NCBI GenBank assembly: GCA_013002105.1
Contig: JABDKS010000505.1
Coordinates: 1 to 20,327, forward strand
Reading direction: 5' to 3'
From: Pirellulaceae bacterium
GTDB lineage: Bacteria; Planctomycetota; Planctomycetia; Pirellulales; Pirellulaceae
Length of the DNA: 20,327 nucleotides
Shown: in pieces, positions 2,309 through 20,327 of the stretch
Layout: each line of letters starts with the position of its first letter
Position numbering within the stretch: the stretch's first letter is position 1
Program-made: the position numbers and the translations under genes
The notes under the pieces: model-generated
Told to the model about the DNA's origin: nothing
Seen by the model: only the letters and a program-made list of their open reading frames with translations
Database searches by the model: none

Positions 2309-5300
2309 TTAGACGAGCTGCCACTTTCCGACGTAGCCATCGACAAGGTCAACGAAGTACAGCGAGCCATCGGGGCCTTGTCGAATCGTGACAAAGTATT
2401 GGGCACCGGTGGTGAAGACCTGCATATTTGTCAGTACACCATTGGCATCGATACTGGCGCTGCGGACGATGCCTTGCCCCAGGTCGTTGAAGAAAATATC
2501 GCCCTCGTACTGTTGTCCCAAGTCTCCATTTCGCAGGACATCTCCCATCACGATGGCGTTGATTCCGTCGGTTGCATGATTCAGCGCGATCGCACCCGGC
2601 GTCGCCACGGCGCCGCTGGCATAAAACGCCTGTGCTTCGGACAAGTTCGCGTAACCACCGCCGGTCTGGTAGTTCACACCCTGACCGCCTTCGTAGTACG
2701 GCCAGCCAAAATTGGTGCCCGCTCCACCTGTGTTGATTTCTTCCCATCTTGTCCAGCCCACGTCACCGACATACAGCTGGCCGGTTGCATCGTCTACCGA
2801 AATTCGGAATGGATTTCGCAATCCCAGTTGGTAAACCTTGGATCGATTGGCATCCGGATTGCCGTTGTAGAAAGGGTTGTCGGCAAGGCCGTCACCGGTG
2901 ATCGGATTGATCCGCAAAATCTTGCCGCTTAACGAATCGATGTCTTGAACACGAACGGCGCGAGGATCGACGTTGTTGTAGCTCGCTCCGTCACCGATCG
3001 AAACGAACAGACTGTTGTTGGATTCGAAGGCAAGGGAACCGACGGTGTGAGTCGTGCTGTCACTGTTGATGAAGTCCTGCAGATAGGATCCATCAGGATT
3101 CTGACCAGCCGGCGGTTCGGACACATTGAAGACACTATTGACGAAGCCGTTGAAATTGTCCCAGGTGCTGTTGTTGCCCAACAGAATGGTCTCGCTGCCA
3201 CCGACCATGGTGGTGTAATTCGTGGACGAATTCAGAGTAATCCGCATCAGTCGTCCGGCGCGGTTACCGCTTCCGTCAGGTCGCGCGTTGGCGTTGCCGG
3301 TGTGATTATTTACCTCGGGCGGATCATAGGTGTACAGCAAGTACAAATATGGGTTGTTGGCGAGGTCGGGGTGGACCGCGATGTCCAGCAAGCCACGGTC
3401 AGAGTAATCGTTGACGATTGCGGAGATGTCGATCACCGGAGAGCCAACGGATTGACCGTCTCGCAAAACTTTGACGACTCCACCTTTTTCGGCAACGTAC
3501 ATGTTTCGGCCGTCCGGTGACCAATCGATGGCGATCGGTTGAACAAAACCGCTTGCGACGACCAATTCGCTGACGTCGCCCGACGGATTGACCGGCGGGT
3601 CGGCGGGCGGAGTTTCCAAATTCATCGTCCACGACAAAATACGGTGGGCATTTGGACGGTCGTAGTTGGACGAAGTAAATCCAGCGTAAAACTGCGAGCC
3701 GACATAGGCATCCAAACTAACCGTTGTCTTCAGCGTTGCCGCGGTCGGTTTAGTCGACGTTTCAGAAACATACACGCTGAGCGAATCGCTGATCCCGTTG
3801 TAATCGACCCAAGCGTAGTACACGCCGCCAAAATTCAGGTTGAACGGCGCTTGAACTTGCGCTAGATGATTTGTAATTTCGCCGCCGGCGAGCACACCGA
3901 CTTCGTCGTTGTACAAGTCCCAGCCGTTTCTCCAAGTATCCAGTTCGACGGCGATGCTGTTGCCAATGTCATCGTAGCCGACGCCGCTACCGCCGCGACC
4001 CAATGCCGAAGCACCAGCGGCGGAGTTTTGCAACACGAATAAGATTCCGTCAGCGCCGCCGGCACCGCTGCCGCCAGTCATCTCGAACGAAAACGCCGTT
4101 TGAAAGGAGGTGTCCGCGTTGGCCAAGATCGGTGTGTCATAGAACGCCGATCCGGTTTGGAAAGTTGAATCACTGGTGATCTGTAATTTGCCGCTAACAA
4201 GAGACGCGCCGCCGTTGGTGACGATCCCCGACGCATTTTGAAAATCAGCGTAATTAGGAAGCGGCAGATCATCGTCAAGGATCGTGATGGTCGCGGTACG
4301 TGGAATGCCCAGGTCGGCGCCATTGGGATTGTCAATCGTAAAACTGAATGTCTCAGTTGTTTCCGGATCGCCGTTGTCGATGATGGGAATCAAAATGTCT
4401 CGCGACGACTGGTTCGGACTGAATGTGATGGTGTTCTCCGTGGTCGTGTAGTCGTCGCCGCTGATTGCATCTTGATCAAACGTTTGATAATCAACGCTTG
4501 CCGATGCGGACAGGTCGCCCGTTCGGACGATCGTCAGTGTTGCCGATCCATCCGATTCGCTGACTGTGATTTGGGAACTTGCTAGCTGAAACGAACTCTC
4601 GCCGCCCGGATTGCCACCGCCACCGGCGTACTGGAAGTACCCGTTGGTGTGTAAGTATTCGCTGGTGCGAAACCCTGGTTGGATGCCGTCACCGGGCAGC
4701 CAAGTCCCCGTCGAATAGACGCTTGGGTCTTCGGTCTGAAGTCGTTGCCCATCGATTTCGATCCAATCAACACGCAAATTGCGATCGATGACGCCATCGA
4801 CATACAAGTCATTGGTGAACGCGATTTGAATTTGATCCGCGGTGACCGTTTCGGACGCGGTGAAAGTCAGATCCACGAATTGTCCGCCGTAGGCATTCCC
4901 ACCGACATTCAACCAGGTACTGACCGTCCGGCCGTCAATCCGTAATTCCATCGTTTCTTCATTCGTGACGCCTGCGGCACGAATGTTGATCACAGAACCA
5001 TTTCCTGTGTTGCCGCCTGGATCGAAATACTCGAAGTAGCCGCCAGCATGCATGAATTCGCTCTCTCGGAAACCGGCAGTAATGCCATCGCTGCTTTTCC
5101 ACGTTCCGGTCGAGAAGACACTGGGATGTTCGGTTTCGATCGTCACGCCATTGACGGTGATGTTATCGACGCGCAGATTTCGATCGATGTTGGGAGGATC
5201 GTATAAGTCGTTGGTAAAGACGACGCGCACGCGATCGCCCGTTACCGTGTCGCCGCCGGTGTACGTAAAGGTCTCGAATTGCCCGGCGTAGTAATCACCG

Positions 5301-6103
5301 CCGATGTTCGACCACGTCTGAACTGTTTGGCCGTCAATCTGCAATGCCATTTGCTCTTCGCCGGTCAGACCCGCAGCGCGGATCGTAATCGGTAGGGTGT
5401 GGCGATAGTTGGCTAACACATATCCCTCGAACGCCACACCGGCCTCAATCACGCCGATGGTGTGTTCCAGGTCCCAGTCGGCGCCGCCGATCGCACCGGT
5501 GCGGTTGGTCGATGCGGCAACGTCGGCGCCAGTTATTTTGGCCAACGCAGCAACGAAACGTTGTCCCTGGCTGTCGGCAGCAACGTCGCAACCATAAACC
5601 AGGATGTCGGCGTCGGGCCGCAAGGCACGCGACCATTTCGCAATGTGTTGGGATTGATGTGCGATCGTCGTGGCATCGATCACCTTGCCGCCCAGTTGGA
5701 TCTTCCCTGCTTCGCCGTGGCTGACGATGTGGAGCGAACCGACGTCGCGCCGATGGGCGAGCGTCTGCGAGATTTGGGCGATCGGGTCTTGAGATTCGCC
5801 GATCAAGACAATTTCGGCATCATCGATCGAAGCTCCAAGCAGGTCCGAATCGGCAACCGCGCTGTCGATGAAAACAATTCGATCGACGCTCGTCCGCGGC
5901 GAGGTCAATTCGTTTCCGGTCAATGCGGTACCGACCACGCTGGATGTCGGGCCGGAGGTGGTAGCTGGACTGGCAAGTGCTCCAACGGACGCGACAGCCC
6001 AGGCCGCATCGCCAGCGAGCATCAATCGTTGTTCCAATGGCGAGCAAGTCCAGCTTCGAGCGTCCCTGCGATCGGGGAAAGTACGATTACGACGACTTCT
6101 CAT
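2309..6103 (-). CDS. LEPR-type DUF4347 protein with CBM60-like repeats, Calx-beta, lectin and PQQ sugar dehydrogenase-like domains
   Basis: This 1264-residue modular protein is probably exported. Order: a basic N-terminus with LEQRLMLAG (23-31), a variant of the planctomycete LEPR motif; DUF4347 (about 76-232) with VSHG (His129), YGCD (Cys172), GADVAAS and ADWDLE; two tandem CBM60-like calcium-dependent carbohydrate-binding repeats (239-360 and 372-492); Calx-beta (about 506-612); L-type-lectin-like domain (about 617-830); and a glucose/sorbosone dehydrogenase-like six-bladed propeller (about 843-1264) with AVHPDL, GLRNPFRI (Arg1096) and His1019 at the place of the catalytic histidine of soluble PQQ glucose dehydrogenase. 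No hydrophobic signal peptide is visible. I infer a surface or secreted protein that binds polysaccharide and oxidises released sugar. A GGAG lies 10 nt before the ATG at 6103. It diverges from glf. Domain names are from pattern memory; Calx-beta and GSDH are the surest. Confidence 0.9.
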   Translation of the reverse strand: MRSRRNRTFPDRRDARSWTCSPLEQRLMLAGDAAWAVASVGALASPATTSGPTSSVVGTALTGNELTSPRTSVDRIVFIDSAVADSDLLGASIDDAEIVLIGESQDPIAQISQTLAHRRDVGSLHIVSHGEAGKIQLGGKVIDATTIAHQSQHIAKWSRALRPDADILVYGCDVAADSQGQRFVAALAKITGADVAASTNRTGAIGGADWDLEHTIGVIEAGVAFEGYVLANYRHTLPITIRAAGLTGEEQMALQIDGQTVQTWSNIGGDYYAGQFETFTYTGGDTVTGDRVRVVFTNDLYDPPNIDRNLRVDNITVNGVTIETEHPSVFSTGTWKSSDGITAGFRESEFMHAGGYFEYFDPGGNTGNGSVINIRAAGVTNEETMELRIDGRTVSTWLNVGGNAYGGQFVDLTFTASETVTADQIQIAFTNDLYVDGVIDRNLRVDWIEIDGQRLQTEDPSVYSTGTWLPGDGIQPGFRTSEYLHTNGYFQYAGGGGNPGGESSFQLASSQITVSESDGSATLTIVRTGDLSASASVDYQTFDQDAISGDDYTTTENTITFSPNQSSRDILIPIIDNGDPETTETFSFTIDNPNGADLGIPRTATITILDDDLPLPNYADFQNASGIVTNGGASLVSGKLQITSDSTFQTGSAFYDTPILANADTSFQTAFSFEMTGGSGAGGADGILFVLQNSAAGASALGRGGSGVGYDDIGNSIAVELDTWRNGWDLYNDEVGVLAGGEITNHLAQVQAPFNLNFGGVYYAWVDYNGISDSLSVYVSETSTKPTAATLKTTVSLDAYVGSQFYAGFTSSNYDRPNAHRILSWTMNLETPPADPPVNPSGDVSELVVASGFVQPIAIDWSPDGRNMYVAEKGGVVKVLRDGQSVGSPVIDISAIVNDYSDRGLLDIAVHPDLANNPYLYLLYTYDPPEVNNHTGNANARPDGSGNRAGRLMRITLNSSTNYTTMVGGSETILLGNNSTWDNFNGFVNSVFNVSEPPAGQNPDGSYLQDFINSDSTTHTVGSLAFESNNSLFVSIGDGASYNNVDPRAVRVQDIDSLSGKILRINPITGDGLADNPFYNGNPDANRSKVYQLGLRNPFRISVDDATGQLYVGDVGWTRWEEINTGGAGTNFGWPYYEGGQGVNYQTGGGYANLSEAQAFYASGAVATPGAIALNHATDGINAIVMGDVLRNGDLGQQYEGDIFFNDLGQGIVRSASIDANGVLTNMQVFTTGAQYFVTIRQGPDGSLYFVDLVDGYVGKWQLV
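4628..4990 (-). repeat. CBM60-like module, copy 2 of 2
   Basis: Codes for residues 372-492 of the same protein and is clearly homologous to copy 1 along its whole length. The copies differ at many positions and are not recent identical duplicates, which suggests both are retained for function, for instance to raise avidity for polysaccharide. Confidence 0.8.
5024..5389 (-). repeat. CBM60-like module, copy 1 of 2
   Basis: Codes for residues 239-360 of the large DUF4347 protein. It shares with copy 2 the blocks IRAAG, LQIDGQTV / LRIDGRTV, FTNDLY, DRNLRVD, STGTW and GYFxY, in the same order and spacing. The second copy follows after about 11 residues, so this is an intragenic tandem duplication. 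The Asp/Asn-rich FTNDLY and DRNLRVD segments suit the calcium-dependent sugar-binding site of CBM60. Confidence 0.8.
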
Positions 6104-7612: not shown

Positions 7613-7636
7613 TCACAATATCTATAGGTCTGTTTC

Positions 7637-8518: not shown

Positions 8519-8536
8519 CGGCACGTGTGGCGTATC

Positions 8537-8564
8537 CCACTTGTGACGAATACGAGGCAAGTGG
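8537..8564. terminator. Inverted repeat in convergent intergenic gap, possible bidirectional terminator
   Basis: A perfect 7-bp inverted repeat, CCACTTG (8537-8543) and CAAGTGG (8558-8564) with a 14-nt loop, lies in the 60-nt gap between two convergent genes. The position suits transcription termination in both directions, but the stem is short and no T-run follows. Confidence 0.3.
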
Positions 8565-8578
8565 AGATGGCGTCGGTG

Positions 8579-9496
8579 TTATGCAGCGCGTCGGGTGATG
8601 CCGAGTTTGCGTCGCAATCGTTTCAGCGGTCCGACACGATTGGGGTGACTGAAAAGTTGTCGATCCGTGTACGCATCTGCGTCGTGATTGCGGCTCACGT
8701 GGTTGGGATGCCAGAGTTCTGTTAAGGCTTGAGTTGGCAATGCCGTCATGGGGTCATGCCGCTGCGTATGCGTGGCATCGGATCCAAATCCGATGTTGGA
8801 GACTAAATTGACGTCCGGCAGAATCGTTAGTCCGTGATTCATCCAGCAACTAAGTTGCCAGGGATACGCCCAACTGGCACTTTCGCCTGCGTGACAGCGG
8901 TCGTAGATCTCGGTCCAATAACGTATTTCTTGTGCGCTATCGCACCAATTCGAAAGGCCGCCTGCATCACGAAATGTGGGCCATTGGGGAATCATCAATG
9001 AAAAGTGTTCCCAGGCGCGACGCCACGTTGCCCAGCCCCAGCAATGCATGTATTTGGAAAAGTAGTAGCTGGCATCGGTGCGACTGATCCCTTGTTGAAA
9101 GTTGTCGCCGCTGATCGCCATGATCCGCTCGTCGTCTTCGTATCGTTCCAGCATGGCATCGCAGAACGAAAAAAAACTGGGGTCCGCCACACAGTCGTCT
9201 TCTAGGACGATCAGACGGTCGACAAACTGCATTGCTTGGGTGATGGCGCTGCTGATTCGCAGTCCACATCCCATATTGCTGGTGGCATAGATCTTGTAGA
9301 CGGCGCAATCCCAATCGACCTGCTGCGCGATCTGACGCGTTTGCTGAACTAGCTGATCCTCACCCGGTCGATCCGGGCGAGCAGCGTCGCTGACCAGAAA
9401 AAGTTTGTTCGGACGGACGGAACGAATGCGTGCAAAACTGGCCCGCGTGGGCTCAGGTCGGTTGAAGGTCACAAAGGCAACAGCAACATCCAGCAT
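8579..9496 (-). CDS. GT-A fold glycosyltransferase (GNT-I/HlpA-like)
   Basis: This 305-residue, probably cytoplasmic glycosyltransferase begins with the GT-A opening strand VAVAFVTFNRP. The metal/nucleotide-binding acidic motif is VLEDDCVADPSFFSF (EDD at 99-101), typical of proteins annotated as GNT-I-like or HlpA-like transferases in polysaccharide and O-antigen clusters. The conserved aromatic block YMHCWGWATWRRAW (149-162) and PYPWQ-like WAYPWQLSCW (209-218) also fit that group. Donor and acceptor sugars are unknown. It converges with the glf pair, so it is not in their transcript, but proximity suggests the same glycan pathway. The start is ATG at 9496 with no Shine-Dalgarno site. It ends TRRAA. 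A 184-nt gap separates it from the secretion operon, so separate transcription is likely. Confidence 0.85.
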   Translation of the reverse strand: MLDVAVAFVTFNRPEPTRASFARIRSVRPNKLFLVSDAARPDRPGEDQLVQQTRQIAQQVDWDCAVYKIYATSNMGCGLRISSAITQAMQFVDRLIVLEDDCVADPSFFSFCDAMLERYEDDERIMAISGDNFQQGISRTDASYYFSKYMHCWGWATWRRAWEHFSLMIPQWPTFRDAGGLSNWCDSAQEIRYWTEIYDRCHAGESASWAYPWQLSCWMNHGLTILPDVNLVSNIGFGSDATHTQRHDPMTALPTQALTELWHPNHVSRNHDADAYTDRQLFSHPNRVGPLKRLRRKLGITRRAA

Positions 9497-9680: not shown

Positions 9681-11861
9681 TCACGACACATCATTGGCCT
9701 GCTGCCAGAGGCGACGAATGGTCTCGACCAGTCGCGTGATGATGGGATCGCGACGATAGCCAATCGATGCTTCCATTCGCATCCCTGCCGGTAGTGTTCG
9801 CGCCGTTTCGCTGGACAACTGGATCCTGGCTGGAAAATGCGGTTCCAATAGCCGGTACTCCTGGTCGCCATCGTCCCCATCTGCATCGGACGCCTGTCGT
9901 ACTGCCAACGGGCCTCCTTCGATGGCCGAAAGCGATGGTTCGGCAAGCCGATGGGTGGCGCGTGGATCAACGCGACGAATCTTGCCCTCGATTGGATCAA
10001 AACGACAGGTGCGGATTGGAATGGTTGCTCCCACTTGTGAGCGAGCTTCTTCGATATAGTCCTGATGAACGACAGCCAGCAGTTCTTTCTCGTTTTCCGC
10101 AGCGACCATTAACAACAGATCGCCTTCGTGTACGTAGCTGCCGACCAATTGAGCTAAGTCGCGACCAACGATTTGTCCATCGCGGTGGGCGATTACCTTG
10201 AGCCCACTGGCATGACGCTGGACCTGATCGATTTGATCGATCAATGATTGCGTCTTTTCCTGGAGCACCAATTGAGCTGACGCGTCACGCTGATTGATGG
10301 CTGCCCGATATCGCAACTTGTTCTGTTCCAATGCGATTCGCAGTTTGTAAAGTCGGATTTGCAACTCGGGGTTATCGATCTCGATCAACAGGTCACCACT
10401 TTTGACTTGCATCGAATCGACAACGTGAACCGCTCGCACAAATCCATCGGTTCGGCTGCGGACCAACGTCTCGGGCAAGAATGTGACGACGGCCGGTACC
10501 TTGACGGCTGTCGGAATCGGCATCCAGCAGACGGTCGCGATTGCGGCTGACAAGATCGCGGATCCAACAACAACGCCGCGGATGAAACGTGGCGTGTCAC
10601 GTTGAAACAACTCTTTCCCATGCTTCTGCAATTGACCCAGCGGTTGGCCCAGCCATAGCAGCACGCCGATCGCCGCAATGATAACTCCGGCTCCGGAGAA
10701 CATTGCTGCAGCGGTAATCGCGAGGGTTACGCAGATGACGACCTTCCAAATCAATGCCGCTGCACCATAAAGCCGCAGGAACCAGAGTCGCCAATGAATA
10801 TAATGACCTGGCGAATCGTGTTGGCCGGTGACGATCCGCTTCGCAATTCGTTTGATCTCCTGCATCGATTCGCCGTACAAATTCGGAATTTCGATCAAGT
10901 CGGCCAAGATAAAGTAGCCGTCGAATCGCATTAAGGCGTTGGCATTGAACAGGATGGTGGACAGTCCCGCAGTGAACACGAGGTTGTGCAGCAGGAACTG
11001 TGTCTGTTGGGATTCACTATTGGCCCAAACCAAAATGGCGACTGCCGCGATGGTCAGTTCGACAAACATTCCGGCCGAAGCGACTGCGATCCGAGGCCAA
11101 CGCGATGTCATTCGCCAGCAGCTGGTGACATCGACGTACGCCATCGGTGCGAAAAGGATAAATACCAGCCCCAACTCGCGAACTTCCCCGCCGTGTCGTT
11201 GGCAGGCGACGGCATGTGCAAGTTCGTGAACGATTTTCAGGACGACCCACCAACCCAATAGCCAGATCCAGTTGGTGCTACTGAAAATTTGCGTGCTCGA
11301 TTCGGCGAAGCGATTCCAATGGCCCGCCAAGGTGAACAACGCGATCAGTATCAACAGGATGCCCAGCACCACGACGATTGGCGAAAAAATCCAGCGCAGT
11401 GACCGCGCCATTGGCGCGATAAAATCCCGCGAATTTCGATGCCCCGGTTTGCACAACGGCAGTTTCATCCAAAACGGATTGAATTTCGTCCACAGGGCGC
11501 TTGCCTGCTTGTCGCCGGGCGTTCGAGAGTGACCGCGTCGTGGCGGACCGTCGGTCGGTAGGTACGCCAGGTTGTTGCGAAGCAACCAACGTTGGATTGA
11601 CTCAGCTTGACTGGCCGTCGGGGCTCGATCACGCAGTGTTGCTGCGGCAAGGCCACAGGCCTGTGGGATGGTTGTCTGTCCATCCAGCAACGAAATAAAT
11701 ACGTATTCTTCGTAGCCAACACGAAAAAACTTGTGCTCGGTTGGGATCTCGATTCTGTAGACGCACTCGCCACGTTCGCGAACCGGCCAGACGACAATGT
11801 CGTCTGCCAATTTCAGTTTCTGCTGCGCAAGGTCAACGCTATGGGGATCTCGGCGTACCAT
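9681..11861 (-). CDS. M50-type membrane metalloprotease fused to HlyD-like adaptor, with PqqD-like N-terminus
   Basis: This 726-residue protein has three parts. Residues about 15-100 resemble a PqqD-like/winged-helix peptide-binding domain (FFRVGYEEYVFISLLDG). Residues about 155-447 form a polytopic M50/site-2-protease-like domain: zinc motif HELAH (212-216) inside a membrane segment, and NALMRFDGYF (Asp314 as likely third ligand), so the active site looks intact. After the last membrane helix (about 428-447), residues 453-700 form a HlyD-like adaptor with a split biotinyl-lipoyl domain (DGFVRAVHVVDSMQVKSGD ... DGQIVGRDLAQLVGSYVHEGD) around a coiled coil (about 500-550). Relatives are sometimes annotated as putative peptide zinc metalloproteases. 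It is the last gene of the operon; its ATG begins 3 nt after the previous stop, so translation is probably coupled. Cleaving or releasing an exported substrate is inference. Confidence 0.9.
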   Translation of the reverse strand: MVRRDPHSVDLAQQKLKLADDIVVWPVRERGECVYRIEIPTEHKFFRVGYEEYVFISLLDGQTTIPQACGLAAATLRDRAPTASQAESIQRWLLRNNLAYLPTDGPPRRGHSRTPGDKQASALWTKFNPFWMKLPLCKPGHRNSRDFIAPMARSLRWIFSPIVVVLGILLILIALFTLAGHWNRFAESSTQIFSSTNWIWLLGWWVVLKIVHELAHAVACQRHGGEVRELGLVFILFAPMAYVDVTSCWRMTSRWPRIAVASAGMFVELTIAAVAILVWANSESQQTQFLLHNLVFTAGLSTILFNANALMRFDGYFILADLIEIPNLYGESMQEIKRIAKRIVTGQHDSPGHYIHWRLWFLRLYGAAALIWKVVICVTLAITAAAMFSGAGVIIAAIGVLLWLGQPLGQLQKHGKELFQRDTPRFIRGVVVGSAILSAAIATVCWMPIPTAVKVPAVVTFLPETLVRSRTDGFVRAVHVVDSMQVKSGDLLIEIDNPELQIRLYKLRIALEQNKLRYRAAINQRDASAQLVLQEKTQSLIDQIDQVQRHASGLKVIAHRDGQIVGRDLAQLVGSYVHEGDLLLMVAAENEKELLAVVHQDYIEEARSQVGATIPIRTCRFDPIEGKIRRVDPRATHRLAEPSLSAIEGGPLAVRQASDADGDDGDQEYRLLEPHFPARIQLSSETARTLPAGMRMEASIGYRRDPIITRLVETIRRLWQQANDVS

Positions 11862-11864
11862 CGA

Positions 11865-13400
11865 CTACCACCCCGTGTAGGTTCGGAGAGAATAGTAGGC
11901 ACGATGGAAAAGATTCCAGGCGAGAGGATGTCGATCACTCTTAATCCAAGACCGTCCACGCATCCCGGGTCGCAGAGTCCCTTTGGGATCGCGAATCGTG
12001 ACTTCGCCAATGAAGACGTTGTCGTGTTCGCGAATTTCAGCTTTGGGGTGAATATGCTCCAGCTTGCCGGTCAGTTTCTCCGCTGGCAGCGCGTGCAAAT
12101 AGAACTCCACCGGCATTCCGGTCCGGACGGACGCGAGTTCTTGCTCGGGGATTGCGATTTCGACAATCATTTCGCCCAGTGGTGCAATTTCGAAAAGTAT
12201 TTCGCCCTTGGTCAACGGCGTGCCTTCGGATCGCTTCAGGTCGTGACTGACCACTACTCCGGAGAGCGGACTGCGAATTTCTAAATTGTCGCGTTGATAT
12301 TCCAGCAGCTCTTGTTCGAGCGTCAATCTTTCCGTCTCGAGCTGTGCGATCGAACTGCCGCCGAAATCGTGTTGGGCCATCAGTCCTTTCTTTTCTTGAA
12401 TAGCCTGTTTTAGCTGGGCACGAAGACCGGCGAGTTCGTAATCGATTTCGCGGGGGTTGATTCGTGCGAGCGTTTCACCGCTTTGGACAACATCGCCGGG
12501 ACGAACCAGGACGCGCTGGAGCGGGCCGTCGAAGGGCGCCGCGACGATGCGGCGTTGAACGGGTTGGAGTTCGCAGCGAGCCTTGACGTGATAGGGAACG
12601 GGAACGCACATTGCCAGTGCGATCGCAGCCGAAGCGGCCAGAATGACTTTGCGTCGCGACCGATCCGCCCGCTCGGTTGCCGAGCGAATCACTTGTTCCC
12701 ACTTGCGCGGCTGCATCGCTTCGATCGCGACCAGTTTGTTGGTCAACGCACTGCCGACGGCATCCAAGTAATCTGCGACTCGTTGGGTGGCGGAATCAGG
12801 GGTTGGAATTTCAGGCGTTCGTTGATCGCGTGGCACTGAGATGGCATCGACCGCCATCAAGACGCCGTGAGGTTCACCCTGGGAGTCGATCAGCGGAATG
12901 GCGACCAAGGATGTCGCGGAGATCATGTCGACATATTTCTTGATTGCCAACAACGCGTGACGCTTGGAATGATCTCGACAGGGAAACATCGTTACGGCGC
13001 CACGCGCAAGGATTTCCTCCGCCGCCGCGTGAAAATGGGCCGCGGAATCGATTGTGTCGGGTGCTGTGTCGGCAATCAGTTCACACTTGCGTCCAAGCTT
13101 TCGCTGCCAAGCGATTTGCACTCTCTTGACATGGAGGCATTGCCCCAGCATGCGGGCGGCTTTGACCGCGGCCGATTGGCAGTCATGGCAAGTGTCCATT
13201 TCGGAAACGATCGCGACCGCCGCGGCCAGCATTCGGCATTGATCCTCGGCCTGCAAAACACGCTCGTTGGCTTGCTGGATTGCGACAGAGGCGTGCTCGA
13301 TTGGCTGATGTGATACCACGTTGCCCGGCGCAGCGTTGATCGGCGCGCCAACGGACGATGGCACTTCGCCGGATCCGATTAAATGGGACGGATCAAGCAT
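11865..13400 (-). CDS. GAF domain-HlyD fusion, membrane-anchored adaptor
   Basis: This 511-residue protein has a cytoplasmic half with a GAF-like domain (about 55-225; the block SLVAIPLIDSQGEPHGVLMAVD is the usual end of a GAF fold), a single membrane helix (about 251-268), and a periplasmic HlyD-like adaptor (about 275-490) with APFDGPLQRVLVRPGDVVQSGE and IRSPLSGVVVSHDLKRSEGTPL as the two lipoyl half-motifs around a coiled coil (about 325-372). The GAF half has several cysteines (71, 74, 88, 106, 141), so a redox or metal signal is possible but unproven. A good site, AAGGAG (13410-13415 on the complement), lies 9 nt before the ATG. It sits 41 nt behind the periplasmic adaptor gene and 3 nt before the M50-HlyD gene. 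The role suggested is linking a cytoplasmic signal or motor to the conduit. Confidence 0.9.
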   Translation of the reverse strand: MLDPSHLIGSGEVPSSVGAPINAAPGNVVSHQPIEHASVAIQQANERVLQAEDQCRMLAAAVAIVSEMDTCHDCQSAAVKAARMLGQCLHVKRVQIAWQRKLGRKCELIADTAPDTIDSAAHFHAAAEEILARGAVTMFPCRDHSKRHALLAIKKYVDMISATSLVAIPLIDSQGEPHGVLMAVDAISVPRDQRTPEIPTPDSATQRVADYLDAVGSALTNKLVAIEAMQPRKWEQVIRSATERADRSRRKVILAASAAIALAMCVPVPYHVKARCELQPVQRRIVAAPFDGPLQRVLVRPGDVVQSGETLARINPREIDYELAGLRAQLKQAIQEKKGLMAQHDFGGSSIAQLETERLTLEQELLEYQRDNLEIRSPLSGVVVSHDLKRSEGTPLTKGEILFEIAPLGEMIVEIAIPEQELASVRTGMPVEFYLHALPAEKLTGKLEHIHPKAEIREHDNVFIGEVTIRDPKGTLRPGMRGRSWIKSDRHPLAWNLFHRAYYSLRTYTGW

Positions 13401-13441
13401 CCAGGGCGACTCCTTCCAAGGTGGTCAATTGGATCAGCAAA

Positions 13442-14380
13442 TCAGCGTGACTTGATCTTGGGTGTGTGGAACGGGGCACCGGTCAGAGGGCGACGATCGG
13501 TGATACGTTCCGTCTGGTCGTATTGGGCAAGTTCCCAGTGGCAAGCGACTCCACACAGGATTTCTTCCTGAGGATTGGGGACTTTTACCTTGACGCGAAC
13601 CGATCCGCTTTGCGGATCAGCGGTTGGTGAGATGAACTCGATGACTCCCGTACAGGTGGCGTTCTCCAAGCCGACCTGTAGTTCGATTTTTTCTCCGACG
13701 TGCAAGGTGCTGGAGACATTTTGAGGAACAAAGAAAACAGCTTTCAAGAGATCCAATTGGACGATGTGCATCACGACCGGATCGTTGGGCGACACAAATT
13801 CGCCTGCCTCTTTTTCGATTGCAACCACATGCCCGGTGATCGGCGATTGAATCTGACGCTGCTTGATCTGAGCCTTCGCACGTTCGTACTCGAGCCGACG
13901 GACCTCCAATTCCTCGCGAACGCTCTGCAATCGAGCTGCAGCCTTGAACTGTTCATTCTCGGCACGTTCGCGTTCACGCTCGGACGCGTTGCCCTGCTTG
14001 CTGAGCGCTTCGTAGCTTTCGAGTTGTTTTTTGCGTACTTCGTTTTCCGCTTCGGCTGAACGCAATGCTCCGGTTGCTGTTTTGGCCGCCCGGGCAACTT
14101 CCAGCGAGGCTTGCAGCACAGTGTCATCGAGCTTTGCCAACAGTTGATGCTTTGTCACGCGGTCGCCTTCATGGACCAACACTTGCGATAGCACGCCGAT
14201 TTCCGCGGCCGGAACTGCGATTTGGCGATACGGTTCGGTGAAGCTTTCGACCGCGTCGCCACAAGCGATCGCCGGAGTTCCCAGGCAGATTGCCAACAGT
14301 AACATTCGGCTTCGGGTTCTGGACAGAACATTGGTCAGAGATTCGGGCATCATCCGTTCGCTTTGGCGTATGGGTCGCAT
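13442..14380 (-). CDS. Periplasmic HlyD/AcrA-like adaptor (possible lipoprotein)
   Basis: This 312-residue adaptor (membrane fusion protein) would join inner-membrane parts to the TolC-like protein. It has an N-terminal export signal with hydrophobic core MLLLAICLGTPAIAC (26-40); Cys40 could be lipidated, although the lipobox AIAC is imperfect, or cleavage could occur after AIA. First lipoyl half IGVLSQVLVHEGDRV (61-75), long coiled coil (about 90-175, Glu/Arg/Lys/Ala rich), second half IQSPITGHVVAIEKEAGEFV, then a beta-barrel domain ending near 285. There is no RND-pump gene beside it. The ATG at 14380 is taken; ATGs at 14353 and 14350 would also keep the signal sequence. Third gene of the operon, 75 nt after the SecA-like stop. 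Confidence 0.88.
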   Translation of the reverse strand: MRPIRQSERMMPESLTNVLSRTRSRMLLLAICLGTPAIACGDAVESFTEPYRQIAVPAAEIGVLSQVLVHEGDRVTKHQLLAKLDDTVLQASLEVARAAKTATGALRSAEAENEVRKKQLESYEALSKQGNASERERERAENEQFKAAARLQSVREELEVRRLEYERAKAQIKQRQIQSPITGHVVAIEKEAGEFVSPNDPVVMHIVQLDLLKAVFFVPQNVSSTLHVGEKIELQVGLENATCTGVIEFISPTADPQSGSVRVKVKVPNPQEEILCGVACHWELAQYDQTERITDRRPLTGAPFHTPKIKSR

Positions 14381-14421
14381 GAAATCGATTCCGCTAGAGT
14401 CGTGGGTGATTGTTTGGTAAG

Positions 14422-14438
14422 CGGCACTGCGGGTGCCG
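14422..14438. other. GC-rich intercistronic hairpin between SecA-like and HlyD genes
   Basis: CGGCAC and GTGCCG pair perfectly (6 bp) around a 5-nt loop. It is the only sizeable spacer (75 nt) inside an otherwise tightly packed operon. On the transcribed strand no T-run follows, so it may set message stability or partial attenuation rather than full termination. Confidence 0.4.
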
Positions 14439-14455
14439 GCTAGAATTCAATTGGA

Positions 14456-16459
14456 TTACAGTTGCCAACATCCCTCAGGGGATTGGGATGTATCGAGCAA
14501 CGATTCGGTTTCGTGGTCAAGCTTCAGCATTTGCAAACGCATGGAGGTTGCTTTGGATTGTTGGCTATGCTGGACGCGGGCGAGGGATTTGTCCCACGAG
14601 TTGGATACCGACGAACGATCCTCGGTTCGACGTAGGATCGCACGCCTGATCCAAGGTGCGTGCTTGGTGATCAGTGCGTCGTCGGCCGAGGTGTAAAATC
14701 TTGCCGTTCCCGGATCACCGCATCGTGCGCAGCGACCGATGAGTTGTCGGTCGACCCTGGCTAGTGAATGTCGCTCGGTCACGATGACATGCAGTCCGCC
14801 CAGTCGCCGCACATGTTCGTCCAACACGATATCCGTGCCACGTCCGGCCAAGTTTGTGGCGACGGTGATCGCACCGCTACGACCGGCTTTGGAGATAATG
14901 GCGGCTTCGTTTGCGTCTTGAACTCCGTTAAGAAGTTCGAAATCGAGTCCGAGCCGGCTAAGTTCTTCGGCGACACAAAGACTCTGCGCGATGTTCAGTG
15001 TTCCAATCAGGACGGCACGGCCTTGTCGATTCAGAGATTCTGTTTCTTGACCGATGGCTGCAATCTTGTCCGACTCGGTGTTGGAGATTGATTCGGCTTG
15101 AACTTGGCGTCGTGATTGCAGACGCAGGGGCACCGTGGCGACGGGTAACCCGTACACAAATGCAAATTCCTTTTCGCAACCCCTGGCCGTGCCGGTCATT
15201 CCACCGAGCATTGCGTACTGACGATAAAAACGTTGCCGCGTGATCTTGGCCAGCGGCTCGGTCTCAGGAGTGATTGGCAGGTTTTCCGCAGCCAAGACCG
15301 CCTGGTGCAAACCATCCGACCAGGTTCGGTCCTCGAAGATCCGGCCGGTGGACGGATCGACAATTTGCACCTTGTCTTCGGCAGTGACGTAGTGCACGTC
15401 GCGTTGGAATAGATGTGCGGCACGAAGGGCCAGAACGACATATTCGTGCCAGGGTCGAATCAATTGCCGATCCACCGCCATGGTGACGTCGGTATAGCAA
15501 CGATCAAAACCCGCCGCCGTCAGTTCAACAACCCCAGCTTTTTGGTCCACCACAAAATCGCGATCGGCTTGCAGTTCCTGCCCGAGAGCGTTCGCTTGTA
15601 AGTGTATCGCGGCATCGGCTGCTTCACCTTGACTGCTACTGCTTAGCAAAAGGGGCGATACCGCATCGTCGATCAAAACGTGGTCGACTTCGTCAACAAT
15701 CGCAGCGTGCAGCGGGCGTTGCCGAAGCGATGCATCGGGATCATTTCCCCTCAGTCGGTTCAAAATGACAGACCCCACTGGGCCGGACGCTTGTTGGGCG
15801 AGTGTCAGTTGGTCTTTTAAGTAATCAAATCCAAACACATGACCGGCCGCGTAAGTTACATCCGCTTCATACGCTGCACGCGTCTGGGACAGCGAATCAG
15901 AATCGGTCAGCAGGCCAGTGGTCATGCCAAGTCGTTCGAAGATCGGAGTCAATCGCTCGCGGTCACGACTGGCCAAGTAGTCGTTCGTAGTGGCAACATG
16001 AACTCCGCGTCCAGCGAGTGCATGCACGTAGGCGGGCAAGACGCCCGCTAACGTCTTGCCTTCGCCGGTTTGCATTTCGGCCACCGCTGAACAACTGACG
16101 ATGATGCCCGCATGCAGTTGCACGTCGAAAAGGTCCAAGCCGGTCGCCTGGCGAATCGACTCCAAAACGCCTGCACCGGCAAGTGTGAGCAGACGTTGAT
16201 CGTCTGTTGCAATTCCCGATCGCAAATATTGTTTCAGTCGCCCGGTGTGTTGCCTTAGTTGGTCGATGCCGCAATCACGCATCGTGCGGGCGGCCGTATG
16301 AGTTTCGTTCAAGATGGACGCGATCCACTTTGGATCGCTCAGCCGTCGGCGTCTCTCTCTGGCGACCGGTGACCGATCCACTTTGTCGCTGCGGCGATCA
16401 ATATGCGTGAATCCACCGGCTATCGGTTCCGTTTTTGGCGACAGTGCGGCGGCAATCAT
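14456..16459 (-). CDS. Truncated SecA-like ATPase (NBD1-PPXD-NBD2 only)
   Basis: This 667-residue SecA paralogue keeps the motor core: QLHAGI and AEMQTGEGKT (Walker A, Lys135), VDEVDHVLIDDA (Walker B, 255-266), a preprotein cross-linking region with WSDGLHQAV, GGMTGTA (419-425), ATNLAGRGTDIVL (534-546), and TERHSLARVDRQLIGRCARCGDPG with both motif VI arginines. Canonical SecA is about 830-950 residues. Here the chain ends about 80 residues after NBD2, part-way into the long scaffold helix, so the helical wing, two-helix finger and C-terminal zinc linker are missing. The stop is followed by other genes in other frames, so this looks like the real end, not a local frameshift. Its ATG overlaps the TolC stop (ATGA). 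It cannot be the housekeeping SecA; a dedicated motor for the neighbouring conduit is inferred. Confidence 0.93.
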   Translation of the reverse strand: MIAAALSPKTEPIAGGFTHIDRRSDKVDRSPVARERRRRLSDPKWIASILNETHTAARTMRDCGIDQLRQHTGRLKQYLRSGIATDDQRLLTLAGAGVLESIRQATGLDLFDVQLHAGIIVSCSAVAEMQTGEGKTLAGVLPAYVHALAGRGVHVATTNDYLASRDRERLTPIFERLGMTTGLLTDSDSLSQTRAAYEADVTYAAGHVFGFDYLKDQLTLAQQASGPVGSVILNRLRGNDPDASLRQRPLHAAIVDEVDHVLIDDAVSPLLLSSSSQGEAADAAIHLQANALGQELQADRDFVVDQKAGVVELTAAGFDRCYTDVTMAVDRQLIRPWHEYVVLALRAAHLFQRDVHYVTAEDKVQIVDPSTGRIFEDRTWSDGLHQAVLAAENLPITPETEPLAKITRQRFYRQYAMLGGMTGTARGCEKEFAFVYGLPVATVPLRLQSRRQVQAESISNTESDKIAAIGQETESLNRQGRAVLIGTLNIAQSLCVAEELSRLGLDFELLNGVQDANEAAIISKAGRSGAITVATNLAGRGTDIVLDEHVRRLGGLHVIVTERHSLARVDRQLIGRCARCGDPGTARFYTSADDALITKHAPWIRRAILRRTEDRSSVSNSWDKSLARVQHSQQSKATSMRLQMLKLDHETESLLDTSQSPEGCWQL

Positions 16460-19212
16460 CGTCTCGATTCCGTCGGTGGAGCTTCTTGAATCAAGGTTGC
16501 CTCGCGGCCCCAGATTAGATCCTGATCCGGGTTTGCAGTGGTCGCTCCATCTCGTGGGGTACCGACGCTATCCATACCACTGTTCGCGGCGCTCATGTCG
16601 TTTGGATCGACTCCCAGGGGACCGATATTGGGTGGAGCAACAATGGGCGCCTGGTCTTGAGCGTCAAATCGCAGCAGGATTCCCATCGCCTTGCGAAGTT
16701 CAATCCAAGACAGCGCATAGGCGACTTGTGACGACACGAGTGCTCGTTCTTCGTCAGCGAGTCGTTGTTGTGCGTCCAGTAAGTCCTCGATCAACAGGAC
16801 CGCGGATTGGTTGGGATCGGGCAGGAGTTCCCAACGCTGCTGCAAATAATTGACTTCCTGGGTCGCGGCATCGATGGAACGTTTTTTGGCGACCAATTCG
16901 CTGTATGCGGTTTGTGTTTCGCGTACGGCCACTTCGACTTCCGTAAATGCGACTTCGGTGGCCTGTTGAAATTGATACATCGCTTGCGAAAATTGCCATC
17001 GATTTCGGTTCAACCGCGCCTTGTTGGCACGGTTACGAACCGGCAACTCATAGACCAAACCGGCCCAGTAGGTTGGACGACCATCGGATAACTGATTGGT
17101 CCAGGCACCCAGCGTGTTGCGATTGTCATCCAGTCCCGCAACATAGGTCCCCAGGATCATATCCAGTTTGGGCAGCACTTGATTTCGCGCCGCACCCACT
17201 TGCGCCGACACCGCTTGAACATTCCGAATGGCTTGAGCAATATCGGATCGATTGTCCAGTGCCGTGATCACGCTTTGCCGCGTGGAGACGGTGATGGGAA
17301 AACTGAGCGGTTGATCACGAGGGATCAGTTCCCACTGCTGCGCCTGCATCAGTTGTTGGCTGCCGGTCAGTAGACGCAGACGTGCCTGCGCGTCACGAAT
17401 GCGAGTCACACTGCGAACGAGTTCTGATCGGCGACTGGTCAATGCGGCGCGTGCTCGCAAGATTTGACGTTTTTGTGAATCGACGCCATCACGTGCTTCC
17501 AACACTTTGGTCAAACGCTCCGCACCGGCGACCAAACGCTGACGTTGCAGCCAATCGGCACGGGCTTGATACAGATCCCAGTAGGCACGCGTGACATCGA
17601 CCAGATGGGTCTCTAAGTCGGTGCGCACCGAAGCATTTGATATTTGCAAGTCCAATTGCGCTAGCAGCACGCGCACGTTGTTGACGGCAGCGCCACGGTC
17701 GCGCATCAGCGGTTGTGTAAAGTTGAACTCCAGCCGCGTGGTGCCTTGCGGATTGGGATCGAGAAACTGCGAGTTGTTGGATTGGAAACCGCCGCGCTGA
17801 TACAGTTCCCATTTTCCGCCGTTACGGGTTTTCTTGCGAACGCCACCGGTCGCGGTGAACGTTTCGTCGCGGAATGTGTCGTTGGCATTTCCGGTGGTCA
17901 GCGTGCTGCCGACCGGTTCACTGGTGTCGGTGAACTTGCCTTCGAGAAACACTTTGGGGTCAAACTCGGCGTCGGCGATCACGATGTCGCTGTGGCGGAT
18001 ATGCGATTTCGTCAGGATGGATCGGACATAGGGCGACGATGCGAGGGCGGTTTCGGTTAACGTTCCAATATCGACCGGCAGTGTCTGCGGAGACAAACCG
18101 AGGGAGTTTTGCATTGGCAAACTCCACCACATCTCGAACGTTTCACCGCCATTCGCGCCCGCATCGGCTGCCGTGAACATCGCTTCGGGGTCAACGAACA
18201 GAGGTTGTGATTGGCTGGGAACCTCGGTGGCCCGGATTCGATAGGGGTCCAGGACTCGCGCGTAGGGCCCGTGCGACACAGGCATCGGGAGTGAAGGAGC
18301 AGGAGGCGGGATTAACCCGACACGCTCGGCCGGGGAATCGATCACGACGTCGCGACTGGTGAATTGGCCGGTGCTGTTTTCAGTGTTGTTTGCGTTATTG
18401 ACTTCGTTGGCTTGATCGATGCGGCTGTCGTCGTTTGCGATTTTGCGACTTGGAGCGGATGTTTTTGCTTGTGCGTCGTCTGGTTCGATTTGCAGGTAAC
18501 TAGGGAGGGATCTCTGTTGGGGTGCACCCGGGGGCGTCAGTCGCGGTTGTGTCGCAGCAATGTCTTGCGTCGTATCGGTCTCCGTTGCGATTATCGGAGT
18601 GGATTCAGCGACAGGCGTGAAGCGAATGGGCTCTGGAGGAAGCGGGGTAGCAGCGATCGTGGGCGACTTCGGTCCACTGGCGAGAAATGCCGGTGGGCTC
18701 AACGAGGTCGTTGCCGGACGCTGGTTGTCTGTTTTTTCGATGGGCGTGGACATCTGCGGAAACGCAAATGGAATGCTCGGGCCCGATGTGTCCAGCGCGT
18801 GCAAAGTAGCGTCGCTGTGTGTCGGTGGTGACAACTGTGCGGCGGCGACGGGCGTGGTAGGCGAAGTCGCAAGAATGGAAGGATTGACCGGCGTGGCGGT
18901 CTGCGCTGTTTTTTTGCTGAACGTCTTGAGGGCAGGCACGCTGGCCCCGTCAACCGCAGGTACGCTTTCGGTTTTTGACTCAGTAGCCACGTTAGCCGAC
19001 GGCGGATTTTCGCTAGGAAATGCGAAAGGGTTGGCGCGGGTTTTGTATGCGGGTGCGCCGATGATCAGCGACGATTTCGTCGTACGCTGTCGACCGGGCG
19101 GTTCTTGAGCTGTTCCAACTGTGGTGACCAAAGTGGCCGACGCCAATAAGGCGCGCAGAATCTGCGCCCGGGAGCGTCGTCGACTTTCAATAGGCGTCTT
19201 GAGCCTACGCAT
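16456..19212 (-). CDS. TolC-family outer-membrane efflux protein with long proline-rich N-terminal region
   Basis: This 918-residue protein (ATG at 19212; a TTG just before it at 19215 would add one residue) is about twice a usual TolC (430-500). It opens with a signal peptide: RRRSR, hydrophobic ALLASATLVTTVG, and likely cleavage near TAQ. About 340 residues of Pro/Thr/Ser/Ala-rich, low-complexity, probably disordered sequence follow, including PFAFP twice (about 63-67 and 149-153). From about 380 comes the outer-membrane efflux protein fold: LTETALASSPYVRSI, FTQPLMRDRG, long alpha-helical hairpins with DLVTRAYWDLYQA-type pattern (540-550), and a second half with SDIAQAIRNVQAVSAQVGAARNQVLPKLD and LLDAQQRLADEERALV. 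It is the first gene of the operon and overlaps the SecA-like gene by 4 nt. Expected role: outer-membrane exit duct. The extension may reach across periplasm or wall. Confidence 0.92.
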   Translation of the reverse strand: MRRLKTPIESRRRSRAQILRALLASATLVTTVGTAQEPPGRQRTTKSSLIIGAPAYKTRANPFAFPSENPPSANVATESKTESVPAVDGASVPALKTFSKKTAQTATPVNPSILATSPTTPVAAAQLSPPTHSDATLHALDTSGPSIPFAFPQMSTPIEKTDNQRPATTSLSPPAFLASGPKSPTIAATPLPPEPIRFTPVAESTPIIATETDTTQDIAATQPRLTPPGAPQQRSLPSYLQIEPDDAQAKTSAPSRKIANDDSRIDQANEVNNANNTENSTGQFTSRDVVIDSPAERVGLIPPPAPSLPMPVSHGPYARVLDPYRIRATEVPSQSQPLFVDPEAMFTAADAGANGGETFEMWWSLPMQNSLGLSPQTLPVDIGTLTETALASSPYVRSILTKSHIRHSDIVIADAEFDPKVFLEGKFTDTSEPVGSTLTTGNANDTFRDETFTATGGVRKKTRNGGKWELYQRGGFQSNNSQFLDPNPQGTTRLEFNFTQPLMRDRGAAVNNVRVLLAQLDLQISNASVRTDLETHLVDVTRAYWDLYQARADWLQRQRLVAGAERLTKVLEARDGVDSQKRQILRARAALTSRRSELVRSVTRIRDAQARLRLLTGSQQLMQAQQWELIPRDQPLSFPITVSTRQSVITALDNRSDIAQAIRNVQAVSAQVGAARNQVLPKLDMILGTYVAGLDDNRNTLGAWTNQLSDGRPTYWAGLVYELPVRNRANKARLNRNRWQFSQAMYQFQQATEVAFTEVEVAVRETQTAYSELVAKKRSIDAATQEVNYLQQRWELLPDPNQSAVLLIEDLLDAQQRLADEERALVSSQVAYALSWIELRKAMGILLRFDAQDQAPIVAPPNIGPLGVDPNDMSAANSGMDSVGTPRDGATTANPDQDLIWGREATLIQEAPPTESRR

Positions 19213-19584
19213 CAAATTCTGCAGGAATTGAGGTCACGGTTGGCAACGTCCCATCGGCCACTTTCTTGGATTGAATGTCAATCACATGGACGTCCGGTAC
19301 GTGAGAATCCGAATTGCCAGATCGGTTCGAACAGGAATAACGATCGGCAGAAACGGACTAGGCGGTACAGGGCGATCGCAAGGAAAGGGGTGGCCCCCTA
19401 CTGCCCGTCATGGAAAAACCAAAGCAAGCGATGCAATCGGAACAGCAATTCAACTTTGCCACGTCCTCACATTGTCTCAATGTCGGCATCTACTCAGATC
19501 GTTCCCTACAGTTCAATTGGTCGACTCCCGCACCGGCGATCCGGCTCCAACTATTCGTCCATACCCCACAAAAGTCCCTGTTTC
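19213..19584. other. Divergent promoter region between secretion operon and second DUF4347 gene
   Basis: About 370 bp hold no convincing gene. Both transcripts must start here. On the minus strand a TTGACA lies at 19281-19276 with only a poor -10 at 17-nt spacing (GCCGAT), so promoter assignment is weak. A 5-bp GC stem AGGGG-TGGC-CCCCT is at 19386-19399. The shared region would allow co-regulation of operon and putative client. Confidence 0.45.
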
Positions 19585-20327
19585 ATGCCTAATCGAATAC
19601 GCAATTGGTGGCAGACGTGCTTGCTAACTGCCGATGAAGCGGCATTGCGTGTTCGCGCGGCGGTTGCAAAAAGCGATCATCCGGCACGATCGTCAAAATC
19701 GTTAATCCTTAACGATTTGGAACCTCGCGTGCTGTTCAGCGCGACCCCGATCGACCCGGCGATGATTCCGGGGGCGGACGAATTGAGTGCGACGGTGGTT
19801 GAAGTGGAGCCCGCAGAGGATTCGGGTCAGGATCAACAACTTGCCGCCAGCAGTGCAACCGAGCAATCGAGCTCGGAAATCATCGTGATCGATTCGAGTC
19901 TGCCGGATTTGCAGCAATTCTTGGATGACTTGCATCAGTCCGACCGCGATAGAGACGTGTTTGTATTGGATGCCAACCGCGACGGGGTCGATCAAATCAC
20001 CGAAATCCTGTCGGGTCGTAACGGGGTCGAATCATTGCATTTGGTTTCGCATGGCAGCGACGGTGGAATCCAACTCGGCAATACTTGGCTTACCGACGAC
20101 AATTTGAATGCCTACGCCGGGCAGATTTCGATGTGGCAAGGTTCGCTGAGCAGCGAATCGGACATTCTGATCTACGGCTGTGATCTGGCCAGCGGCGCCG
20201 ATGGTCAACACCTGATTGAGTCGCTGAGCGTCTTAACCGGCGCTGATGTGGCTGCGAGTGTCGACGACACGGGCCATCAGTCTCTCGGCGGCGATTGGGA
20301 TCTGGAATATACCGTCGGTCAGATTCA
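19585..20327 (+). CDS. LEPR-motif DUF4347 protein, 5' part (runs off the window)
   Basis: The frame stays open from 19585 to the window end (247 codons plus 2 nt), so only the N-terminus is seen. It carries a basic start (MPNRIRNWW), LEPRVLFSA (45-53), which is the canonical planctomycete LEPR motif, then an acidic low-complexity linker, then DUF4347 (about 98-247) with HLVSHGSDGG (His156), LIYGCDLASG (Cys199), TGADVAAS and GGDWDLEYTVGQI. His-to-Cys spacing is 43, the same as in the 1264-residue protein. No classical signal peptide is present. ATG at 19585 has no Shine-Dalgarno site; an in-frame ATG at 19480 is also possible, but its extra 35 residues look non-coding. Such proteins are often very long, with adhesion repeats after DUF4347; that part is unseen. 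It is divergent from the secretion operon and is its most obvious client candidate. Confidence 0.88.
   Translation, partial: MPNRIRNWWQTCLLTADEAALRVRAAVAKSDHPARSSKSLILNDLEPRVLFSATPIDPAMIPGADELSATVVEVEPAEDSGQDQQLAASSATEQSSSEIIVIDSSLPDLQQFLDDLHQSDRDRDVFVLDANRDGVDQITEILSGRNGVESLHLVSHGSDGGIQLGNTWLTDDNLNAYAGQISMWQGSLSSESDILIYGCDLASGADGQHLIESLSVLTGADVAASVDDTGHQSLGGDWDLEYTVGQI

Follow-up and report, generated by a model that had tools for sequence, protein, structure and literature searches.

The window analysed here, the complete 20,327-nucleotide (nt) contig JABDKS010000505.1 of a Pirellulaceae bacterium (assembly GCA_013002105.1), contains a cluster of five genes on the reverse strand, which encode a TolC-family outer-membrane channel, a short secondary SecA, two periplasmic adaptors of the HlyD type, and a fusion of an M50 intramembrane protease with a third such adaptor, proposed below to be the hub of the system (Table 1). 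The initial annotation had placed the five genes in this way, in agreement with the Pfam and NCBIfam searches, and the junctions calculated from the gene coordinates are as it described them (a 4-nt overlap and gaps of 75, 41 and 3 nt). Its label of GAF-adaptor for the second adaptor, a protein of 511 amino acids (aa), holds for the HlyD part, while no GAF match was obtained with Pfam even at E≤1; the domain is present in 4 of the 10 proteins aligned with this adaptor (Pfam). No ABC exporter or RND pump is found among the 12 apparent genes of the window, each searched with Pfam, NCBIfam or both, as had also been annotated. Because the window is the whole contig, whether a pump lies just outside it could be judged on relatives alone: no ABC exporter stands beside the cluster in the annotated alphaproteobacterial plasmid loci L001-L004 and L006, and an oligopeptide-type ABC operon lies farther from it in L001 and L002.

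The same annotation took LEPR/DUF4347 proteins, encoded on both sides of the cluster, as its clients, and both genes (2309-6103 and from 19585) indeed encode a DUF4347 domain and a leader motif. The LEPR-XLL model matches the divergent client alone; the second client is not matched at E≤0.01. With Pfam, no RTX match is found in the second client, and the other client is cut by the window end.

Table 1. Positions of the cluster genes, the client genes and their main elements in the window.
Feature	Position	Strand	Evidence or remark
TolC-family outer-membrane channel (OEP), 919 aa, long N-terminal extension	16456..19215	-	Pfam OEP 4.4e-22, best stretch residues 651-845
Short secondary SecA, 667 aa, C-terminal part missing; ATPase core and preprotein cross-linking domain present	14456..16459	-	SecA_DEAD 1.4e-80
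Walker A GEGKT of short SecA, residues 132-136	16052..16066	-	invariant in 16/16 secondary SecAs
Periplasmic adaptor HlyD/RND_mfp, 312 aa	13442..14380	-	TIGR01730 124.1 bits, above cut-off
Second adaptor (511 aa), a homologue of GAF-HlyD adaptors	11865..13400	-	HlyD_3 1.1e-21
Fusion of PqqD/RRE-like domain, M50 intramembrane protease and HlyD adaptor, 726 aa, proposed hub	9681..11861	-	Pfam/NCBIfam, alignments, model
Hub: PqqD/RRE-like domain at the N-terminus (residues 23-95), proposed to read the leader	11577..11795	-	model strands and helices in bbb-aaa order
Hub: HExxH zinc motif HELAH, residues 212-216	11214..11228	-	coordinates checked
Hub: C-terminal adaptor part, residues 449-707, MacA/MexA-like	9741..10517	-	
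Divergent client: LEPR leader and DUF4347, cut by window end	19585..20327	+	DUF4347 4e-52; ATG at 19585, open frame from 19228
Divergent client: leader motif LEPRVLFSA	19717..19743	+	LEPR-XLL 19.9 bits (cut-off 17)
Divergent client: DUF4347 domain, cut at end	19858..20325	+	clan-CD-like cysteine-protease fold
Second client: leader LEQRLMLAG, DUF4347, CBM60, Calx-beta, legume-type lectin, glucose/sorbosone dehydrogenase	2309..6103	-	DUF4347 1.8e-51
Second client: leader motif LEQRLMLAG	6011..6037	-	motif scan, coordinates checked
Second client: DUF4347 domain	5429..5899	-	modelled, mean pLDDT 93.2

Among the clients compared, the leader core can be written as LE-[PDEQR]-R-x-[LMV]-[LFYM]-[SDNA]-[AG] (IE in L004), at a distance of 7-79 residues from the start assumed for each client, which is uncertain in some. 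The density of the motif in the first 100 residues (27 in 95,200 residues) is about 20 times that elsewhere (7 in 494,512), as counted in a frame set that includes spurious frames. The peak hydropathy of 31 motif-bearing client N-termini averages 1.33, compared with 2.30 for HlyD and 1.94 for TolC of the same cluster (a crude test and not a signal-peptide predictor), and the clients mostly have no normal Sec-like hydrophobic core. In the clients of L007, L008, L009, L011 and L013 and in the window client from 19585 onward, a stretch with WW precedes the LEPR motif by about 33-36 residues.

The association of such proteins with the hub was counted in three samples of genomes. The M50-adaptor was searched for with alignment A2 (E≤1e-15 in Planctomycetota, E≤1e-30 in Gammaproteobacteria and Verrucomicrobiota) and the leader with the LEPR-XLL model, at E≤1 with counting over the curated cut-off in Planctomycetota and at E≤0.01 in the other two samples; in 14 control genomes, one exceeded the curated cut-off in the planctomycete search and none matched at E≤0.01. 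Among 195 planctomycete genomes (M50-adaptor in 57, LEPR in 34, DUF4347 in 15), the M50-adaptor is present in 32 of 34 with LEPR versus 25 of 161 without it (p 8e-19 in a Fisher test, which, as in the other samples, treats related genomes as independent and is neither tree-based nor size-corrected). At the LEPR limit of E≤0.01, 25 genomes are positive and 24 of them have the M50-adaptor. The corresponding counts are 14 of 16 versus 10 of 169 in 185 Gammaproteobacteria (M50-adaptor in 24, LEPR in 16; p 6e-13) and 15 of 18 versus 26 of 176 in 194 Verrucomicrobiota (M50-adaptor in 41, LEPR in 18; p 4e-9). Pooled, the M50-adaptor occurs in 61/68 genomes with LEPR and in 61/506 without it, or 58/65 and 61/506 after removal of the three centre genomes, one per sample, which had been chosen for their M50 locus. 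In Verrucomicrobiota LEPR is found in 13 of the 15 genomes with an M50 score of at least 510 bits versus 2 of the 26 below (in one of these two, G574, the M50 gene is split over two contigs); the stronger M50 scores thus carry the association.

LEPR genomes without the cluster, named beforehand as evidence against the client idea, are seven of the 68 (G103, G189, G286, G330, G419, G453 and G513), all kept in the counts. Each has one match, except G103 with two. The matches of G103, G189, G330, G419 and G453 are either weak or fall in frames that are short or questionable: in G103 a region of 73% GC where long frames overlap and no cluster gene lies (L099), in G189 a frame of 138 aa with a stop, in G330 of 99 aa, in G419 of 138 aa, and in G453 of 354 aa (18.7 bits). 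G513 scores 22.2 bits in a 636-aa frame. G286 has no SecA_DEAD at all, and its assembly is therefore probably incomplete.

The M50-adaptor is also present in 13 of the 15 planctomycete genomes with DUF4347; the other two are G045, whose DUF4347 gene (L098) has neither LEPR nor the cluster, and G201. DUF4347 was considered as the defining domain of the clients and rejected: with 15 of the 195 planctomycete genomes, 7 of which also have LEPR, its range is too narrow. The client class is defined better by the N-terminal LExR motif, since DUF4347 occurs in only 7 of the 34 LEPR-positive planctomycete genomes. Of the 36 LEPR matches listed for Verrucomicrobiota, 18 lie in open frames longer than 5,000 residues (genomes without M50 included), and the association would therefore also bear on how some of the longest bacterial proteins are exported without a recognised type I ABC exporter. 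In G409, G412, G485, G551 and G580 the frames reach 17,103 to 20,466 residues, and a LEPR-XLL giant of ~8,000 aa is mentioned in PMC10868602.

The same link is seen between neighbouring genes. In the relative loci, the best 80 of 545, taken from named genome contigs and limited by contig ends and 10-kb flanks, all five core genes stand together in 15, with a client gene also visible in 9 of these, and the arrangement is not due to chance. A DUF4347/LExR gene lies in 22 of the 80 loci; TolC can be recognised in 27 of the loci, and 16 of these contain such a gene. The divergent placement of this gene next to TolC, as in the window, recurs in L007, L008, L009, L011, L013, L017, L021, L022, L024, L031, L035 and L036, and in L046, where the gene is recognised by DUF4347 alone. 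The gene row of G263 reads TolC, HlyD, a 3,177-aa LEPR protein, GAF-HlyD, M50 and SecA. On the alphaproteobacterial plasmids L001, L003, L004 and L006, genes for giants of ~4,000-13,000 residues lie upstream of the adaptors, either adjacent to them or with one small gene in between (L002, with no upstream gene listed, and L005, with no annotation, are outside this comparison). The giants of L003 and L004 are annotated LEPR-XLL, the N-termini carry LEPR in L001, L003 and L006 and IEPR in L004, and the L004 client has 23 RTX stretches. The small protein between giant and adaptors belongs to DUF3467 in L006:12657-12977 (confirmed with Pfam) and L004:13496-13792 (by annotation). SapC-family genes stand beside the system or the client in two Rhodobacterales plasmids (L003:17173-17994; L088:2558-3355).

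Genomic co-occurrence in three samples and gene neighbourhood thus bear out, at the level of association, the client role first assigned to the LEPR/DUF4347 proteins. Very probably, the cluster and the LEPR proteins work together.

In the hub, H212, E213, H216 and D314 of the M50 part are invariant in alignments of 22 and 15 sequences, and the M50 site-2 protease motif is present. The best NCBIfam matches of this part are proteases for the maturation of ribosomally synthesised and post-translationally modified peptides (RiPPs), namely daptide (156.3 bits) and YydH/LiaK (38.7 bits), both under the cut-off. The model of the whole hub, used as the query, returned Foldseek and VIA match lists filled by the adaptor half. 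For the N-terminal domain, compared here with PqqD and the RiPP recognition element (RRE), Pfam PqqD matches 5 of the 15 aligned hub members, all of them alphaproteobacterial and one (L006) over the cut-off, and the planctomycete hub N-terminus matches the proteobacterial one in a profile comparison (probability 97.9, E 4.5e-13). From its PqqD/RRE-like domain, together with the conserved M50 motif and the MacA-like adaptor part, we propose that the hub reads the leader and couples the client to TolC; that the PqqD-like domain is what reads LEPR has a chance just short of even. Matches to the M50-adaptor with less than 60% identity, possibly partial ones, also occur in 18 Escherichia and 8 Citrobacter plasmid records.

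The short SecA contains the SecA_DEAD, cross-linking and P-loop domains of Pfam and no SW domain. GEGKT, D256/E257/D259 and R568..R579 are invariant in 16 aligned secondary SecAs. The protein aligns to residues 33-584 of the 778 of SecA 7xha_A, so that ~190 C-terminal residues are missing; this part of SecA holds the two-helix finger and the wing used at SecYEG. Sixteen genomes were chosen from the loci, and a short SecA, counted as a SecA frame of 590-830 aa, is encoded in 15 of them; in 12 of the 16 there is no SecA in the retrieved stretch, and 11 of these 12 have one elsewhere. Among the 24 Gammaproteobacteria with the M50-adaptor, it is present in 12/12 with an M50 score of at least 574 bits and in 0/12 with lower scores, where G270 and G310 (SecA pieces in 193- and 763-aa frames) are ambiguous. 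Directly beside the M50-adaptor of G270 lies a very divergent SecA_DEAD frame (G270:C215:45279-46154, 573 aa, 95.9 bits). None of 20 genomes without M50-adaptor and LEPR has a SecA frame of 590-830 aa, G029 being ambiguous with its second SecA in an 831-aa frame. Of the 32 planctomycete genomes with both LEPR and M50-adaptor, this search covered G001 alone. In public plasmid records short SecA genes are misannotated as 'prepilin peptidase' (L003:17987-20011, L006:17135-19051), which hides the family.

In DUF4347, H61 and C104 are invariant in all 23 aligned sequences, and each follows a core strand of the model. The fold matches of the model are to clan-CD cysteine proteases (caspases and proteins like the cysteine protease domain, CPD), and DUF4347 is accordingly modelled as a caspase/CPD-like fold with a His/Cys dyad and putative catalysis. 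The domain is reported in PA0256 (PMC8262886), and PA0256/Tce1 is called a putative cysteine protease (PMC13323088).

The remaining genes of the window include, at its start, a XylR-like regulator (37-1236, periplasmic-binding domain and AraC helix-turn-helix) and a DUF374 protein (1536-2219). Between the second client and the cluster lie a UDP-galactopyranose mutase (6464-7612), a further protein (7637-8518) and a GNT-I-type glycosyltransferase (8579-9496; 26.9 bits, cut-off 25.4); the region 6464-9496 is possibly a surface-sugar neighbourhood. A scan for consensus promoters and terminators was uninformative (4 promoter-like sites versus 4.5 expected, 18 terminator-like ones versus 13.4 with a standard deviation of 4.0).

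Taken together, we lean towards the view that the cluster is a leader-addressed exporter of long LEPR-tagged proteins; that these clients are exported at all is probable. The clients would be long extracellular-type proteins for which LE-x-R-x-L-L/F-x-A near the N-terminus may serve as the address. The PqqD/RRE-like domain of the hub, predicted to be cytosolic, would take the leader, and trimming or release of the leader is probably the task of the intramembrane M50 site. The C-terminal MacA-like half of the hub would form, with the other two adaptors and TolC, a conduit through the periplasm. In the window organism the cut-down SecA, with its ATPase motifs and cross-linking domain, most likely threads the chain; our estimate that it powers export there is only a little above even. 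The hole in the inner membrane could be provided by the M50 hub or by SecYEG, and outside the cell the DUF4347 domain probably processes the client. In its strongest form, a one-step route of its own kind in which the RRE-like domain reads the LE-x-R leader in the cytosol, the cut-down SecA (or another factor in some lineages) pushes and TolC is the exit, the reading is possible at somewhat below even chance. If true, a large share of the giant proteins in planctomycetes, verrucomicrobia and proteobacteria, with lengths up to ~20,000 residues, would leave by this route.

Several observations weigh against this exporter reading. No client is in view in 11 of the 27 TolC-bearing loci, and 61 of the 122 genomes with the M50-adaptor have no LEPR match, either because the LEPR profile is narrow or because weaker M50 families act otherwise. 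Two of the 31 client N-termini (L015 and L063, both above 2.0) are more hydrophobic than the signal region of TolC. The PqqD score is below the cut-off in 4 of the 5 alphaproteobacterial hub members, and Pfam PqqD is unmatched in the window hub and in every other planctomycete member of alignment A2. M50 proteins are not known to act as protein channels. In the 50 LEPR-positive genomes of the planctomycete and gammaproteobacterial sets (the 18 verrucomicrobial ones lie outside this test), the PrtD-type ABC protein is over the cut-off in none and the HlyB-type one in four, all gammaproteobacterial (0 of 34 planctomycetes), which speaks for the exporter reading; against it, 42 of the 50, mostly below that cut-off, match the HlyB model at E≤1e-100, which leaves room for another ABC exporter. 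The short SecA is absent in 3 of the 14 gammaproteobacteria with LEPR and M50-adaptor (G262, G329 and G387), assemblies of unstated completeness, and among 25 planctomycete genomes with M50-adaptor and no LEPR it is present in 16 and absent in 9. Finally, in the planctomycetes G020, G085 (two loci) and G108 an OEP (confirmed with Pfam), two HlyD-type adaptors and M50 lie beside DUF4347 with no short SecA (LExR motif in L095, L096 and L097, not in L094), and the gammaproteobacterium G329 (L104) has a SecA-less set of the same composition and a LEPR frame at another place in its genome. Among the long frames viewed in L094-L097 and L104, some of them scanned, none looks like a dedicated ATPase of the set. 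A short SecA as an obligate partner is rejected on account of these clusters, and it is a usual, not a universal, part of the system because SecA-less clusters sit beside clients. The initial proposal of a SecA-like motor as the energy source is thus plausible in the window organism and too strong as a general claim.

The SecA-less clusters, found in genomes with one recognisable, full-length SecA gene each (G020, G085, G108 and G329) and, except in G329, beside clients, speak for a two-step export, in which SecYEG takes the chain across the inner membrane, the short SecA, if there is one, assists in the manner of SecA2, the outer step alone is left to the adaptors and TolC, and M50 removes the leader. 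The operon has no channel protein of its own and the short SecA retains the SecA core, in line with that course of events; however, the clients mostly have no Sec-like hydrophobic core and the short SecA has lost the C-terminal ~190 residues, the finger/wing region, and we consider two-step export unlikely, though the likeliest of the alternatives. Less probable is a proposal published by Kamneva, Poudel and Ward (PLoS One 2015, PMC4452313) taken as written, namely a type I variant in which a secondary SecA replaces the ABC ATPase and M50 is the pore, with no cargo or leader reading: it describes the gene set and architecture seen in the window, but leaves unexplained the SecA-less clusters, the invariant HExxH/D314 protease motif and the PqqD-like domain. 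It could also be that no protein is exported, the adaptors and TolC pumping a small product or a DUF4347-derived peptide, GAF and M50 being a pair for sensing and processing, and the LEPR proteins leaving otherwise. The RND adaptor model, which is the best or among the best NCBIfam matches of the cluster adaptors, and the below-cut-off resemblance of M50 to RiPP-maturation proteases would suit such a pump, yet none is found in the cluster, and the M50 linkage extends to LEPR genomes without DUF4347 and to three samples, which makes this quite improbable. Least of all do we expect the association to be a by-product of lineage and large genomes, both partners being inherited without joint work. 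The Fisher tests do count kin genomes as independent, but the association repeats in three samples and also appears at the level of gene neighbours.

In comparison with known systems, the cluster resembles type I secretion (ABC, HlyD and TolC) in its HlyD adaptors, TolC-type channel and long, sometimes RTX-bearing clients, and differs in that no ABC exporter is in the window cluster and the proposed signal is N-terminal, not C-terminal. It is unlike RND tripartite efflux in having no RND pump among the window genes. With the SecA2 accessory Sec systems it shares a second SecA with DEAD, cross-linking and P-loop domains; here, however, the score is below four SecA2 cut-offs (503.8 versus 1085 for TIGR04397, 396.9 versus 930 for TIGR03714, 369.2 versus 725 for TIGR04221 and 356.6 versus 1100 for NF012136), the C-terminal part is missing and the partners are HlyD, TolC and M50. 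The daptide profile of the RiPP-maturation M50 proteases (daptide, YydH/LiaK) matches hub residues 35-402, the N-terminal region included, whereas the window scores are far under the cut-offs, M50 is fused to an adaptor and the proposed clients are long proteins. DUF4347 differs from the known clan-CD cysteine proteases (MARTX/TcdB CPD, caspases, CHAT, Tce1) in standing just behind the leader at the client N-terminus.

In the open-licence literature, covered mostly at the level of titles and exclusive of paywalled papers and preprints, no publication naming the cargo of the cluster was found; the available text of PMC3482391 contains no TolC, HlyD, M50 or LEPR and nothing on the cluster, and the passages covered of PMC8277102 likewise have nothing on it. 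The locus type itself is the secondary SecA_DEAD locus of the 2015 paper, whose authors suggested that SecA acts as the ATPase and that the pore is formed by the M50 protein; the paper lists the locus in Methylorubrum extorquens AM1 as MexAM1_META1p2399-2402. The claim of a new system is not supported, because PMC4452313 already contains this kind of system and the central idea of its mechanism. Shared with that locus are the short SecA without most of the wing/scaffold domain, the M50-HlyD and HlyD proteins, OEP in some cases, and the idea of the energy source; the window has SecA_DEAD without SecA_SW, M50-HlyD, HlyD/biotin_lipoyl with OEP, and, in place of the GAF-HlyD protein of that locus, a homologue without detectable GAF. 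The broader biological role is called 'completely unknown' in that text, where no cargo or leader motif is named and a term search of the main text gave no occurrence of PqqD, RTX, cadherin or hemolysin and a single mention, in general terms, of substrates. The present analysis adds the SecA-less versions and the LEPR link, which supplies the 2015 locus type with a likely cargo and with candidates for its address and for the reader of that address. As an association, the idea of LEPR clients has good support; it would provide this locus with a function, and the most useful addition is the LEPR leader and the PqqD-like domain as a testable pair of address and reader.

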